IMG/VR virus record: IMGVR_UViG_3300023176_005623
Coordinates: 1-30,302 of that record
Source of the DNA: a virus
Reading direction: 5' to 3' (one strand)
Length of the DNA stretch: 30,302 nt
Shown here: positions 1,888 to 14,048 of the stretch, piece by piece
Layout of the letters: each line of letters opens with the position of its first letter
How positions within the stretch are numbered: position 1 is the first letter of the stretch
Translations under genes and position numbers: made by a program
Notes under the pieces: model-generated
What the model was told of the DNA's origin: nothing
What the model saw: only the letters and a program-made list of their open reading frames with translations
The model's database searches: none

Positions 1888-2658
1888 TTACCTCTTAGTG
1901 TCATAATGGAATCCAGAGACTGAATATTCGTCATTATTTCCTGGATAATCGCTAGGAGAATCTCCTTCATATTCTGGAATTAATTTTTCACCATCACTTC
2001 TTTCGGCAAAGATATGATAGTGACATTCTATAGATTCTTCCGATGTCAAATAAACTTTATTATTTTCAATCTTTTCTACTACAATATTTTGAACTCTTCC
2101 TACTGGAGTAATTGAAACTGTGATGGAGTCTTCATCAACAAATTTTTTCCAATACTCTGGCAGATTTATAATATTTTCTCCCTTTAGTTTTCCTCTAACA
2201 TAAACATCATTGGATGGACCTTCGGGGCAAGTATGTCTCAATCTCCACCCCTCTTTTGTTGGGTGTGGAATATCAAAGTTCTTCTTTGCGGAAAGAATAT
2301 GTACTCCGCAACGAGACATTACTTCTCCTTGAGCAACAATGTCATTTCCTGCAACAACATTTCCTTGAAGATCCAAATTATTAAATATCGCAACATCACC
2401 CTTCACACAAAGTGAGTATGGATTATTCAAAGGTCTACATAAACCACCAAGAACAACAGGAACACTAGATTCTGAATTAACATTGGGTCCAATCATCACA
2501 GTAGCATTTACAATTGGAAATGCGCTTGCACTTCCCATGATTACTGGACCTTCAATAAAAGCAGAACCTCGTGCTTCTACAGGACCAACTCCTAAAGCTA
2601 TTGGATTTCCTTGACCACAAAAAAATCTTTTTCCTACAAATAAATCTGGTACTTTCAT
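1888..2658 (-). CDS. Structural protein: beta-rich N-terminus plus FDIPHPTK domain
   Basis: A 256-residue protein. Residues 1-120 are Gly/Val/Ala-rich with short alternating hydrophobic repeats (for example FIEGPVIMGSASAFPIV and GNVVAGNDIVAQGEV), compatible with a beta-helix or stacked strands. From about residue 127 comes NFDIPHPTK, LRHTCPEGP and the same C-terminal domain as the 206- and 84-residue proteins, including its PEYEGDSPSDYPGNNDEY end. It follows the spike-like 194-residue gene with a 6-base gap, so a place on the baseplate or tail tip is likely by context. No enzyme motif is visible. Confidence 0.68.
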   Translation of the reverse strand: MKVPDLFVGKRFFCGQGNPIALGVGPVEARGSAFIEGPVIMGSASAFPIVNATVMIGPNVNSESSVPVVLGGLCRPLNNPYSLCVKGDVAIFNNLDLQGNVVAGNDIVAQGEVMSRCGVHILSAKKNFDIPHPTKEGWRLRHTCPEGPSNDVYVRGKLKGENIINLPEYWKKFVDEDSITVSITPVGRVQNIVVEKIENNKVYLTSEESIECHYHIFAERSDGEKLIPEYEGDSPSDYPGNNDEYSVSGFHYDTKR

Positions 2659-5878: not shown

Positions 5879-6096
5879 TAGTCTTCGTAAATTCTACATT
5901 CAGATGCATCTGGATGCGAATCACAATATAATTCTAAAGATGTCGGATCCTTAGTTTCTTCTGGATGCCTTTCTTGATATGTTTCTAGTTGGTCCAGTTC
6001 TTCTTGATAGTGTCTTCTACTTTGAGCATTTATGTTTGGGTCAGATAATCTTTCTTTATCTTCTTCAATATGCTGTTGTAATGTTTTTTCTTTCAT
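5878..6096 (-). CDS. Small charged protein between hub genes (72 aa)
   Basis: A 72-residue, highly charged and mostly helical protein (HIEEDKERL, RRHYQEELDQLETYQERHPEE) ending LYCDSHPDASECRIYED with two cysteines. Similar small proteins occur between the gp27-like and gp5-like genes of other T4-like cyanophages, as I recall, so it is probably a real conserved gene. It lies 5 bases after the gp27-like stop and its own stop overlaps the gp5 start (TAATG). Its position suggests a role in hub assembly, but no domain is recognised. Confidence 0.65.
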   Translation of the reverse strand: MKEKTLQQHIEEDKERLSDPNINAQSRRHYQEELDQLETYQERHPEETKDPTSLELYCDSHPDASECRIYED

Positions 6097-7439: not shown

Positions 7440-9904
7440 TATCCTTGTTTATATAAGAATCCTATTATTTGCGATTTATAGTAACTATTTAATGTTTCTT
7501 TTTTGGAAATACTAATTGGAATCATTTGTCCTCCACCAGAATTTACAGAACTTGGAGTAGTTCTTTTTTGAGATTGCATTACAACTACAGGACTTTTACT
7601 ATCAAATCCCATTTCATACTCAGCAGATTCTGAAATTTTTGCAGTCGAAGAAGATAATTTACTTTGAATTGGTTTTGGTATTTGTATAGGTTTGGCTTCT
7701 GATTCTACTGTAGATGCTGTGGAACGCGATCTTCTATTTCTCAACCTATCTTGCCAAGAACTTTCTTTCGCGGAACTTTGAGTTGTTGATAAAGGAGTTC
7801 CCTTTTCAATACCATCAGCAACTCCCTGAATTAATTTGTCAAATTTTGAAGAATCTGTAAAATCTTTTCCATATTTTTTCTCCCAATCTACCATAACTCC
7901 AAGTTCAACTAGAGCAGTTGGTGATGCTGCTCCTCTATTTACAGTAGCATTACTTTGAGTATCACTACTAATATTTCCAAGGTCTTGGTTGTTTCTCTGG
8001 AATTCCAATAAAGCTTCTTGAATTGGTACTGCAAAAGCAGCATCTTCGGCATCTCCAGATCTTGTTCTGGTTAAAAATCCTGTTCCACCACCACTACGAG
8101 AAGCATCAAAATGTAAAGGAACAATTCTAACATCTTTTTTAGATTGTTTCGTAATATAATTATCGTAGGTTTCATAAGAAGAAAAATCTTCTGGTTTTAC
8201 AATTCCAACCTTATATCCCTTTTTCTCCAACTTTGATTTTAATTTTCTTGCGGCAGAGTCTTGATATTGCCTCTCTCTACCATCTGCACCTGTTGCTCTA
8301 GATTGATTAAATGATTTCTTACTTTCATCATCTGGAAATTTTCCAGATAGGTTTGGTGGAACATGATCTAGTGGAATTATAATATCATAATCGGAAGATT
8401 CTTTGGATTGTTTTGTTGGGGAATTTATTAATTGTGTTGTTGGAGTTGATGCTACTGGAGTTGATGCTGCTGGTCTTGAACCTCTTCTGGATTGTAGTCT
8501 TTTTTGTCTTTGTGATGCTGCTGGATTTGGTGTTGATGCTGCTGGTTTCGGTTTTGCTTCAGGAACTAATGATTCTGCTGGTTTTGGTGTTGATGTTGAT
8601 GCTGCTGGTTTTGGTGTTGATGCTGCTGGTTTTGGTGCTGAAGGTGCCGCTGAAGAACCAAAAGATTCGAAATTTTTTAAATTTCCAGTTCTAGCGATTG
8701 CCTTTTGTCTTTTATTTGATGGCCTTTCCCAATACATTGTAAACCATTTAGATGCATCTTCCGCACTAGAAAATTGTGTAGAAAGATACTCCGTAGTATC
8801 TCCTTCAGATAATGCATAATCAACCTGCCCTTTCCAATTCTCCTGCCAATTTTCACCAGCAGCTGATTTCATTGCTCTAAATCTAGTATTGTGATGCTGA
8901 AAAAGACCACCAGAAGTTCCATTATCTCCAATAGCACCAGAATCAAATGAAGACTCTGCTTGAATGTTTGCTAGCATCCCTTTAGCATGAATGTCAGGAA
9001 CACCTTTGCTTACCAAATAATCGTAAATTTCTCTTGGTGGTACAAAATTTTCTCTTCCCTCTGCTATTCCTCCTGCACCTTCTCCAGTTCCTTTTGGCAA
9101 ATCTTTATCAGATTCGGACAAAGCTTCTGGTCCGATTCCAAAAATACCAAAGAAATCTTTAGTAATACTTTCTGTATCATCAAACAGTTTTCCAATCTTC
9201 TCAGCATATTCTTCATCCTCAGTTCTATTTCCAATACCTAAGAATGATCTAATCTGATTGGTTAATTTTACTCCTCCAACTACAACCCATTTTAGAAAAT
9301 CCCAAATAGGTTTTATAAATTCTCCAAGTTTTTCTATGAATAGTTTTATCTTATCATAGATTTCTTTAAAGAATTTTACTATTTCTTTTATATTTTTTAC
9401 TATAGCTAAAACAACAGAACCTAGAATAATGTTCTTGAAAAATTTTCCAATCCCAAATTCATCTCCGGGTATTTTTTGCCCAGATATTGTTCCTTCTTTT
9501 TCTTTTTTCTCTAATCTATTTTCTTCTCTAGTATTCTTTAATTTTTGATATTGTTTTTTATCATCTTGAATTTTTCTTAGTTTTGTTTGATTGCCATACT
9601 TAAGAAATCTAACAATGGTTCCTAAAGTTTTTCCAATTTTTTCAAATATTGTTTTTACACCATCTTTTGGTTTATCCGCTTTGATGTTTTCAGTATCTTT
9701 AAAGTCTTTTGATAGTGTAGGTACTAAACTTGAACTTGGTCTTTTAATCAAAGAAGATTTTTTATTTCTATTTAATTCATAAGATTTTTCTTCATCATTA
9801 CCAAAAAACTTATCTACTGCTACCTTTTTTGCCTTAGATTCTGCAACCTTTTTTGCTTCTGGCAGTGCTAATTTTGCTGCTGTTCCTATTAGTGCTGGTA
9901 ACAT
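7439..9904 (-). CDS. Tail-associated lysozyme-amidase fusion, tape-measure/hub-like
   Basis: An 821-residue protein. Residues 1-150 are charged helices. Residues 153-215 are hydrophobic (NIILGSVVLAIV and following) as in tape-measure proteins. Residues ~286-410 resemble the phage tail lysozyme family (YDYLVSKGVPDIHAKGMLANIQAESSF, with Glu317 as the likely catalytic acid, then GTSGGLFQHHNTR). After a Pro/Ala/Ser linker (417-490), residues ~505-700 look like a zinc amidase of the Amidase_3 family: His514 in PLDHVP, Glu544 in GRERQ, His598 in VPLHFDAS and Glu667 in ALVELGV. It should cut both glycan strands and the peptide-glycan bond during DNA entry. Its linker resembles that of its upstream neighbour. 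Confidence 0.75.
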   Translation of the reverse strand: MLPALIGTAAKLALPEAKKVAESKAKKVAVDKFFGNDEEKSYELNRNKKSSLIKRPSSSLVPTLSKDFKDTENIKADKPKDGVKTIFEKIGKTLGTIVRFLKYGNQTKLRKIQDDKKQYQKLKNTREENRLEKKEKEGTISGQKIPGDEFGIGKFFKNIILGSVVLAIVKNIKEIVKFFKEIYDKIKLFIEKLGEFIKPIWDFLKWVVVGGVKLTNQIRSFLGIGNRTEDEEYAEKIGKLFDDTESITKDFFGIFGIGPEALSESDKDLPKGTGEGAGGIAEGRENFVPPREIYDYLVSKGVPDIHAKGMLANIQAESSFDSGAIGDNGTSGGLFQHHNTRFRAMKSAAGENWQENWKGQVDYALSEGDTTEYLSTQFSSAEDASKWFTMYWERPSNKRQKAIARTGNLKNFESFGSSAAPSAPKPAASTPKPAASTSTPKPAESLVPEAKPKPAASTPNPAASQRQKRLQSRRGSRPAASTPVASTPTTQLINSPTKQSKESSDYDIIIPLDHVPPNLSGKFPDDESKKSFNQSRATGADGRERQYQDSAARKLKSKLEKKGYKVGIVKPEDFSSYETYDNYITKQSKKDVRIVPLHFDASRSGGGTGFLTRTRSGDAEDAAFAVPIQEALLEFQRNNQDLGNISSDTQSNATVNRGAASPTALVELGVMVDWEKKYGKDFTDSSKFDKLIQGVADGIEKGTPLSTTQSSAKESSWQDRLRNRRSRSTASTVESEAKPIQIPKPIQSKLSSSTAKISESAEYEMGFDSKSPVVVMQSQKRTTPSSVNSGGGQMIPISISKKETLNSYYKSQIIGFLYKQG
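8435..8656 (-). repeat. Linker repeat shared with neighbouring gene (copy 2)
   Basis: This stretch encodes the Pro/Ala/Ser/Thr linker of the lysozyme-amidase protein. It contains KPAESLVPEAKP, ASTPNPAA and an SRRG-type end, which recur in the 1078-residue neighbour. On the plus strand the shared blocks include ggaactaatgattctgctgg and tttggtgttgatgc. Internal ASTPKPAA units are also repeated. Confidence 0.8.
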
Positions 9905-9905
9905 T

Positions 9906-12900
9906 TTATCCTACCACATTATAGATTCCTTTGACAACCATTGTTGTCATATTATTTGGATCTTCAGATGAGAAGAATGGTACTGGAGATTGTCCTCCCG
10001 AAGATGTACTTGCTGCATTTCCACTACTAATACGTGAAGGCATTGTAACAATTCCATTCCCAGAACTTCTTCTTGGCGGACCAATAGAAGGACCTTTTGG
10101 TTTGGATCTTACTATTTGTGCTGGTGCTGGTCTGGAACCTGGAGATGATAACTTTGGAGTAGACCCTGCTCCAGGACCAACATATTTGAAATGAGCACTT
10201 TGAGAATTATGATTATAGACATATCTCCAACCATATTTACTTCCATTTCTCTTCATCCATTCATATCCAGCACCATTCATATCAAGTGCTTCTCCATACA
10301 TATGATGGGAATTTGGATGTCCACCTATAGAATCATTTTTTTGTTGACTGCGACCAGAACTTGCAACATATTCGCCAAGATTCATACCAGAGTCTTCAAC
10401 TGCTCTTGCAAATTGTTGCGCAGCAGGACTAGAAAATACTACAGGTCTTCCATTTTGATCTATCTGACCTTGAACAGTATAACCAGAACCAGTTTCTGAG
10501 TGTGAAGCTGGAACTACTTTTGCAGAGCCAGACTTTCCATCTCTTCCAGAATCTTCAGTTCCGGAATCTTCACTTCCGGAAGAATAACTTTGTATCTGAC
10601 TTCCCATTGAAGTAGAAGTAGATGGAGGTATATATGAAGGACTTTCACCAGAACTTATATTTCTTATAGCACCCCAAAGTTGCTCTATTGATTTATTGAT
10701 TAAATCCAACATACCATAGATATTTTTTATCTCTCCAAACAATGCTTTGTTTACTTTACCCTTTCCTTCTTCTTTAGATTTTTCTAAAGATTCTTGAGTA
10801 GATTCATCTGCTGGAGTAAGTGTATTTCTTGGACCTCTTCTGGATTCTTGTCTGCTCTTTCTTCTTGCTGCTGGGTTTGGTGTTGATGCTTCTGGGTTTG
10901 GTTTTGCCTCAGGAACTAATGATTCTGCTGGTTTCGGTTCTGTGCCAGGAACTAATGATTCTGCTGGTTTGGATTGCTCTTTAGGTTCTGGTTTCGATTC
11001 TGTGCCAGGAACTAATGATTCTGCTGATCCAGATTGCTCCGCTTTTTTTGCTTCTTCTGCTTCTCTTCTTTCTTTTCTCTTCAAGAAATAGTGTTTTATC
11101 GCCGCTTCTGTTCCGGCACCCGCTGCCATAGAACCAACAGCAATAGCTATTCCGGCAGGACTTCCAGCACCAGCTGTAACTCCTGTAAGTGCTGTTCCCG
11201 CAGCAAATCCAAGAGCAGTTACCAACCATCCAGCGCCATATGCTGCAAGTTTGATAATAACAGCTTCCATATCACCTTTTTCCCAATCCTCCTTTAATTC
11301 TTCATAAAGAAAAAATAGTCCAAGCACTCTTAATATTGGTCCTAGTGCTCTAATAGCTCTAGCACCAGTACCTTTTAATGCTGATGCAATTGCTTTATTT
11401 TTGCTAATCCATTCCGACATTCCCGGAGGAGTCATTTTCTTCTTAACATAATTAAGACTTCCCTTAGCACTATTCCATGCAGATTTAGTAAAATCAAAAA
11501 TTTTGTCTTTAGTTCTACCAAGAAAATTCATACTTCTTTGAACTAATCCTGGTTTTACTGCTTGGGATTCTAATCTAGGAACATTTCCAAAAACATCTCC
11601 AACTTCATCTGCACCCGCTTTTGCCCAATTACCTAATCCTTTAGGGCCAGAATCTAGTGGTTGGGGACCAATAGGAGAGGTATATGCAGTTCTACCACCA
11701 AGTCTTGGTTTTAAATTTCTAAAAAATCTACCACCTCTTGAACCTGATGTTCGTGGTTTATCTCCTCTTGGTGGTTTATCTCCCTTTGGTGGTTTAGGTG
11801 GTTTAGGTGGTTTAGGTGGGTTTGGAGGTTTTCTAAGATTTCTAAACCACTTAAAAGCATCATATAACATCTTGACAAATTTAAATACTTTCCACCCGAT
11901 TCTCAGAGCAACTAATGCTAAAAGACCCTTAACAATTGTTGGTCCATGCTCTGACATAAAGTTGAAAAAGTCGTCAACTTTTTGTTTATTTTCCGGATTT
12001 TGTAACCACTTTAATGCACCAACAACTGCAGACCCCAATAGTATATTTGTAAAGAATTTTTTTATAGCATCAAAAAAATTAGTGACTGGAGACTCTATTG
12101 CCTTCGGAATTTTTAAACTTCTTTTCTTTTTTCTTTCTAAGTTTTTTTCTTTTTCTTTTCTTTTCTCCTCTTCATTGATTAATCTTTGATTTTCTTTATC
12201 TTTCTTTTCAATATCAGATTGTTTTTCTAATACATTTCTAATGGTAATTAAAGATTCTAAAATATTTCCAATACCATTAGTAAGTTCATTTTCTATTGAT
12301 TCACTTTTCTCAGATTCCTTATCTTCCGGTTTAAGACTATCTACCTTTTTAATCGCACCAGGTTTACGATTAAAAACTTTATCTATATTAACTTTCTTTT
12401 CTTTTACTTTAAACCTACCAGTCTTTCCTTTGACTCGCTTAAGTTCATTGGTAACGAGTTCAATGCTCTCAGTAGTCATCTGAGAGTTTGGCATTCTACC
12501 TTTAATTGATGCTTCTTTTAAGAGTGAAGCATACTCCTCATAAGTTAAATCAAATACATCTTCCAATCCTAAGATAGAAAGAATTTGAGAATCTATTTCT
12601 TCGTCAACTAGATCGTCATATTTTTTTGGTATGGTTGCAAGTGTTGCAAAACCACCTGGAGTATCTTTCTTTTTTACTTCTCCAACAGTTTCCTTTAAAA
12701 GGTCATCTAATCCCTTAGGAATTTTTTCTTCTTGGTCTTCAATACTACCTAAAAGTTCATCCAATCCTTCAGGGATTTCATCATCATCTTCCTCATCATC
12801 AACATCATTTTGCGGATTTACACTAAAACTCTGAGGAATTGCGGGAACTCCCACATATGGAAATAATTCCCAAGCATTATCTTCATCAGTAAGTTTTTTT

Positions 12901-13328: not shown

Positions 13329-14048
13329 CTAGGCGAAAAAACTTGTCAATCCCTCCAATACTACAGTACTTTCTACATTTGTTTTTGGATTTTTCACTTT
13401 AATCTCATGAGATAGTTTTGGCATTGTCGAGAAAAACTTCTCTACATCTTTAAATTGAATGCTATTCATTTGCCCCAGAAAATCTACAATTTCATTTTTA
13501 GTGACATCAGAAGATGACCAAACTTCTTCTTCATTATAAATTTTATCTACACAAGATGCAATTAAATCAAAAGATTGATCGATGTTCTTATCATCATCAA
13601 TATCAAAGTTATTTTTCACAAATTCATCTAAAGATGGATATTTCATTTCCATCACTAGAGTATCATCTAATTTGATTTTATTTGTGTGCTCACTATTTCG
13701 TTTTACTTTTATATCTTCGATAGCAATCTTTACTGAGATTTGAGTTATCCCATCATCAGGAGCTGTAATATTAACTTCAATTTCTTCTCCGATTGATTTT
13801 CCTCGGATATTCAAAAACAAATATTCAATATCAAAAGTTGGTAAATGTTCTACTTTGATACCTTTTGTTTGAATACAATTTTTAAGAACTGCTTTAATCG
13901 CATTAGAAATTTCTTTATTGCTTTCTGATTCTAATGCAAGAACTAAAAGTTTTTCTTCTTTAACTAAAAATGGTCTATACTTAATTGTTTTTCTAGTAGA
14001 TGGCAACTCAAGCTCGTATGAAGGAGTCGCAATTGTTGGTAAAGGCAT
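13329..14048 (-). CDS. 26: Baseplate hub subunit gp26
   Basis: A 239-residue protein with the T4-type gp26 (T4_baseplate family) layout: an N-terminal LPTIATPSYELELPSTRKTIKYRPF strand region, FLVKEEKLLVLALES, then the NCIQTKGIKVEHLPTFDIEYLFLNIRGKSIGE core, an acidic middle and a helical C-terminus. T4 gp26 is 208 residues. In T4 it takes part in assembling the hub. It is the second gene of the leftward structural block, 11 bases before the 55-residue gene, and resembles tail-assembly chaperones placed before tape-measure genes in other tailed phages. Confidence 0.85.
   Translation of the reverse strand: MPLPTIATPSYELELPSTRKTIKYRPFLVKEEKLLVLALESESNKEISNAIKAVLKNCIQTKGIKVEHLPTFDIEYLFLNIRGKSIGEEIEVNITAPDDGITQISVKIAIEDIKVKRNSEHTNKIKLDDTLVMEMKYPSLDEFVKNNFDIDDDKNIDQSFDLIASCVDKIYNEEEVWSSSDVTKNEIVDFLGQMNSIQFKDVEKFFSTMPKLSHEIKVKNPKTNVESTVVLEGLTSFFA

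Follow-up and report, generated by a model that had tools for sequence, protein, structure and literature searches.

Gene content of the window and proteins A and B

The window, i.e. the whole 30,302-base stretch of viral DNA analysed here, contains T4-like genes for gp26, gp51, a gp27-position hub protein, a gp5-like spike, gp48, gp53 and gp32, and additionally encodes a helicase loader, PhoH (phoH), 6-phosphogluconate dehydrogenase (gnd) and CP12. On the basis of this gene content, the DNA was assigned to a T4-like cyanophage of Kyanoviridae type. Two large ORFs, here termed A and B, lie between gp51 and the gp27-position gene (Table 1), and the coordinates and residue numbers given for their domains in the original prediction were correct.

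Table 1. Features of the hub gene cluster in the window; residue numbers refer to the respective protein.
Feature	Position	Strand	Basis or remarks
gp26-like baseplate hub subunit	13329..14048	(-)	PF12322
gp51-like hub assembly catalyst, 58 aa	13150..13326	(-)	phrog_634, E 2e-26
Protein A, 1078 aa	9906..13142	(-)	M15 module between an N-terminal part (coiled coil, hydrophobic segment) and a conserved C-terminal peptide
A residues 221-408, N-terminal core homologous to B core	11919..12482	(-)	hhalign; also matches phrog_35029
A residues 895-995, M15/LAS peptidase domain	10158..10460	(-)	Zinc ligands His947, Asp954, His984; Gln981 at catalytic-acid position
A residues 1055-1078, conserved C-terminal peptide SEDPNNMTTMVVKGIYNVVG	9909..9980	(-)	Candidate docking tag
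Protein B, 821 aa	7439..9904	(-)	Tail lysozyme and amidase between the N-terminal core and a conserved C-terminal peptide
B residues 21-174, N-terminal core homologous to A core	9383..9844	(-)	hhalign
B residues 288-408, Phage_lysozyme2 domain	8681..9043	(-)	Glu317; Pfam, alignment, profile
B residues 505-702, Amidase_3 domain	7799..8392	(-)	His514, Glu544, His598, Glu667; Pfam, model
B residues 797-821, conserved C-terminal peptide LNSYYKSQIIGFLYKQG	7442..7516	(-)	Putative docking role
gp27-position hub protein, 445 aa	6102..7439	(-)	phrog_350; T4-GC15 class
gp5-like spike, 878 aa	3242..5878	(-)	Weak OB-domain match; without lysozyme domain

A and B have homologous N-terminal cores (hhalign 99.6%, E 2e-23), in which a coiled coil is followed by a basic RExxLE stretch and a hydrophobic FFxxIxxFFxNxLLGS segment. 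The C-terminal peptides are likewise conserved but slot-specific, with one type for A and one for B, and are candidate docking tags.

The gene for CP12 (a Calvin-cycle regulator; PF02672, E 3e-12) was located at window positions 5881-6096 (-) between the gp27-position gene and gp5, matching its position in several Synechococcus phages. Downstream of gp5, the ORFs at 298-552, 1263-1883 and 1888-2658 (-) form a small tandem family, all three matching phrog_17490 and phrog_28536, both uncharacterised.

Hydrolase domains of A and B

Domains were called by Pfam, every one above the curated cut-off; the lysozyme domain was further judged by profile, and the amidase and M15 domains were folded as separate models. 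For the 821-residue protein B, the original prediction of a tail-lysozyme-like domain with Glu317 and of an Amidase_3-like domain with four named residues was borne out. Residues 292-406 match PF18013 Phage_lysozyme2 (62.5 bits against a cut-off of 28.2, E 6e-17), Glu317 is present in 12/12 aligned sequences, and a lysozyme profile of 11 relatives matches phi29 gp13 (3csr, E 8.5e-16), where Glu317 aligns with Glu45. Residues 542-700 match PF01520 Amidase_3 (40.5 bits against a cut-off of 27, E 4e-10), and His514, Glu544, His598 and Glu667, corresponding to the His/Glu/His zinc ligands and the catalytic Glu, are invariant across 10 amidase sequences; for all residues named in the original prediction, clustering was judged from alignments. 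The AlphaFold model of residues 489-713 (pLDDT 74, pTM 0.78) had only N-acetylmuramoyl-L-alanine amidases as top matches in two comparisons (Foldseek E-values down to 7.5e-7; CwlD with Z 16.6).

In the 1078-residue protein A, for which an M15-type site had been predicted, residues 903-959 match PF08291 Peptidase_M15_3 (25.4 bits against a cut-off of 23.2, E 1.6e-5). The model (pLDDT 85) best matched VanXYg (Z 8.2) and the S. albus G DD-peptidase 1lbu (Z 7.7), the latter being found by the sequence profile as well (E 6e-7). The zinc site SxHxxGxAxD...HxF is intact, with its three ligands invariant in all aligned relatives. In M15 enzymes such as the S. albus G carboxypeptidase, VanX and the T5 endolysin, the catalytic acid stands three residues ahead of the last zinc His. 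No Asp or Glu is found at this position in A, where it is occupied by Gln981. Among the M15 relatives, which came from viral contigs and P-SSM7, this residue is His (43), Asp (19), Gly (8), Glu (3) or Ser (1), and in the subfamily of A itself Gly, Gln or, only in P-SSM7, Asp. Fold and zinc ligands agree with the prediction, and the canonical acid is missing; we therefore assign the domain to M15 because of its fold and zinc ligands and do not regard it as a demonstrated peptidase. Since the acid is replaced, cleavage of a peptide bond by A is uncertain; judged from the sequence, it is plausible, not assured.

The M15 domain might instead bind the wall without catalysis, so that only glycan and amide bonds would be cut, which is compatible with our main reading of A and B and to which we give somewhat less than an even chance. 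Gln981, the Gly of close relatives in the S-RIM2 group and the restriction of the subfamily Asp to P-SSM7 point in this direction, whereas the invariance of the zinc ligands, the His at the acid position in a large sister group, and a conserved His six residues ahead of the last zinc His, which could substitute for the acid, argue for activity.

A fixed two-gene slot with exchangeable modules

Loci for comparison were gathered via the gp27-position protein, not via the lysins. The gene order gp26-gp51-A-B-gp27-gp5 was fixed, with exactly two large ORFs separating gp26 from gp27 in 121 of the 122 loci containing both genes (all searches pooled, some of the loci being related to each other). The exception was the freshwater phage S-CRM01 with one ORF (L181:9410-12004), where a single 864-aa protein with Phage_lysozyme replaces A and B.

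With profiles built locally and then checked against Pfam, at least one lysin was recognised in 48 of the 77 complete loci found by gp27, and at least two kinds in 19, while 29/77 had none recognisable by the profiles used. The Pfam families found in A or B slots were M23, Phage_lysozyme2, Hydrolase_2, M15_3, VanY, glucosaminidase, GH19, Phage_lysozyme, Amidase_2 and Amidase_3. Searches starting from the lysins led to the same place: the amidase alone (8 loci) returned to these slots, and with M15 alone, gp26 or gp27 was also present in 60 of the 79 loci having an M15 ORF, several of the others being short contigs.

The identity of the modules did not follow that of the backbone. The amidase of the window is 80% identical to that of locus L087, where it resides in slot A, when the respective gp27 and gp26 proteins are 29% and 45% identical. 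Similarly, the M15 domain shares 74% identity with its S-RIM2 counterpart, which resides in slot B, the gp27 proteins being 27% identical. The reverse was seen in locus L011, having a gp27 64% identical to that of the window and a lysozyme only 28% identical. This mismatch indicates that modules move between phages and between slots, in line with the modular hydrolase set that had been proposed.

The proposal that A and B together address glycan, amide and peptide bonds stood in part: three hydrolase folds are present, the peptide cut is the uncertain one, and several classes in one locus are not exceptional in kind, other slot members having two to four lysins each. All three classes together were seen in only one complete locus of the local domain survey, that of the window, but we do not claim it as the sole such set, as L026 (M23, with sub-threshold Hydrolase_2 and Amidase_2 matches) and S-CREM2 (GH19 and Phage_lysozyme, plus a stretch weakly resembling Amidase_3) carry further candidate lysins. 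An Amidase_3 match in L005_A, obtained from an iterated local profile and without Pfam support, was not relied on.

Hub setting and proposed role in entry

In T4, the lysozyme (PF00959) is carried on the gp5 hub spike. A lysozyme domain was found in none of the cyanophage gp5-like proteins of 57 relatives (0/57) by a profile library in which T4 gp5, as positive control, scored 48.5 bits, and in the whole genomes of S-SM1, S-CREM2 and S-N03 the Phage_lysozyme matches fall in B, not in gp5. The contrast with T4 drawn in the original prediction was thereby upheld. The neighbours gp26, gp51, gp27, gp5, gp48 and gp53 are common to T4 and the window, and the lysins of the window are, in our reading, hub-borne like that of T4, but in the window gp5 is without lysozyme and two adjacent separate proteins bear several unrelated hydrolases.

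Published mass spectrometry places orthologues of A and B in virions. In the virion proteome of S-CREM2 (PMC10665884), 73 and 71 unique peptides came from gp208 and gp209, respectively, which occupy the A/B slot in the same synteny, and ORF213 and ORF214 of S-SCSM1, likewise in the slot (ORF213 37% identical to A, residues 177-410), were detected in virions, with the authors' remark that they perhaps were a residue of CsCl purification (PMC9602691). The modules of both phages (GH19 and Phage_lysozyme in S-CREM2; glucosaminidase and VanY in S-SCSM1) differ from those of the window. The gp27-position protein (T4-GC15) has been found in virions of S-SM1 (PMC3037559). Since sequence searches of the PDB with A, B and gp27 for a Kyanoviridae hub structure returned only designed helical proteins or nothing, the hub location of A and B, as originally suggested, rests on synteny together with the virion proteomes.

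Slot proteins have earlier been read as endolysins or lysis proteins, or as passenger (non-structural virion-associated) proteins (PMC10665884, PMC9602691). Endolysins acting in lysis from within, in accordance with PHROG names and the RefSeq label 'endolysin' on orthologues, seem very improbable for genes that are within the hub cluster in all loci of the pooled set except one, that encode long coiled-coil and hydrophobic carriers, and that have orthologues in the virions of two isolates. Furthermore, separate ORFs for small lysins (169-236 aa) are present in S-PM2, S-RIM2, Sf-CH1b and S-SCSM1, and weakly in S-CREM2; those of the first four phages are likely the endolysins.

The original prediction had also considered the proteins tape-measure-like. 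In such a reading, A and/or B would be the tail tape measure with attached lysins, as in T5 pb2, TM4 Tmp and phiIPLA35. This part was not upheld, and we regard it as unlikely. A and B do adjoin gp51 and gp27, where T4 has 27-28-29, and none of the other genes in the cluster is labelled as a tape measure, but neither protein had a profile match to T4 gp29 (hhalign probability <1% with a single gp29 sequence, a comparison of limited sensitivity), and the PHROG tape-measure matches of B span little beyond the lysozyme domain. The N-terminal parts are helical and hydrophobic, yet the sequence added in S-CREM2, in which A and B are the longest among the examined isolates with measured tails (418 nm), is Ser/Thr/Asn-rich, repetitive or of low complexity, together with lysin domains, and not helix. 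Over these few isolates the sum of A and B grows ca. 1.8-fold against ca. 3-fold for the tail, and S-CRM01, with its single protein in place of two, has a tail of 140-170 nm. As for another tape measure, the length of S-CREM2 gp124 (2668 aa) would fit (2668 x 0.157 nm, ca. 418 nm), but this candidate was rejected, being located among wedge and fibre genes and not helical-looking.

We therefore read A and B as paired hub cargo proteins of a T4-like cyanophage that replace the gp5 lysozyme and carry exchangeable hydrolase modules (probability about 0.8). The conserved ends, i.e. the N-terminal coiled coil with the hydrophobic segment and the C-terminal peptide, would anchor the proteins in the tail, where they would sit in the lumen of the hub or tube. 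Sheath contraction would push or release A and B into the periplasm for a local attack on the wall, with the lysozyme predicted to act on the glycan, the amidase on the MurNAc-L-Ala amide and M15 possibly on the stem peptide; at the inner membrane, the hydrophobic segments may be of additional help. In this manner, A and B would take over the role of the T4 gp5 lysozyme, with enzymes presumably fitted to the host.

Virion-borne, modular lysins are already well known (PMC6116005). The lysozyme family of B is that of phi29 gp13 (Phage_lysozyme2 and M23), and some relatives of the window have the same lysozyme-M23 pair; phi29, in turn, has the short tail of a podovirus and a single tip protein, in contrast to the two long carriers of the window with amidase and M15 in addition. 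TAL, TAME and VAPGH lysins of tail tips and tape measures (e.g. TM4 Tmp, T5 pb2, HydH5; PMC6116005, PMC1796659, PMC3150257) are also virion-borne, act in entry and are often modular, whereas the window type has a dedicated two-gene slot, homologous carriers and many interchangeable modules. What we consider new is that T4-like cyanophages have this fixed two-gene carrier slot, in which modules are widely exchanged and which stands in for the gp5 lysozyme. No earlier description of it was found in a search of the open-access literature, a body that leaves most subscription papers outside.

T4-like cyanophages are abundant in the ocean. Their crossing of the cyanobacterial wall lacks annotation, as gp5 is named 'tail lysozyme' although it lacks the domain, and the actual candidates for entry lysins are labelled hypothetical or endolysin, so that nearly all annotations miss or mislabel them. 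The fixed slot names the genes to test and corrects this widespread mis-annotation, and its modules constitute a natural library of candidate entry lysins against cyanobacterial walls. In a wider reading, for which we see the chances as evenly balanced, the slot would be an exchange bay of the hub, where duplicated carriers take nearly any envelope-acting enzyme and have replaced the gp5 lysozyme, module turnover being a main route of entry adaptation to the walls of different cyanobacteria. The cargo seen comprises ca. 10 hydrolase families and one ADP-ribosyltransferase domain, in S-PM2.

The latter domain (PF01129, residues 66-218, 25.1 bits against a cut-off of 22.3) was identified in the slot-A protein S-PM2p207 (L086:4105-7608), which also bears a tail lysozyme at residues 905-1041; it is possibly a takeover enzyme injected aboard a hub lysin carrier. 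The 1415-aa slot-B protein of L026 (L026:5751-9998) combines M23 and an M15-like site with its sub-threshold matches, perhaps amounting to four hydrolases in one chain. In S-CREM2 gp208 (L178:6484-11181), GH19 is accompanied by the weak Amidase_3-like stretch (E 0.017) and by another that resembles NlpC/CHAP on visual inspection, and the slot proteins of this phage may together carry four lysins.
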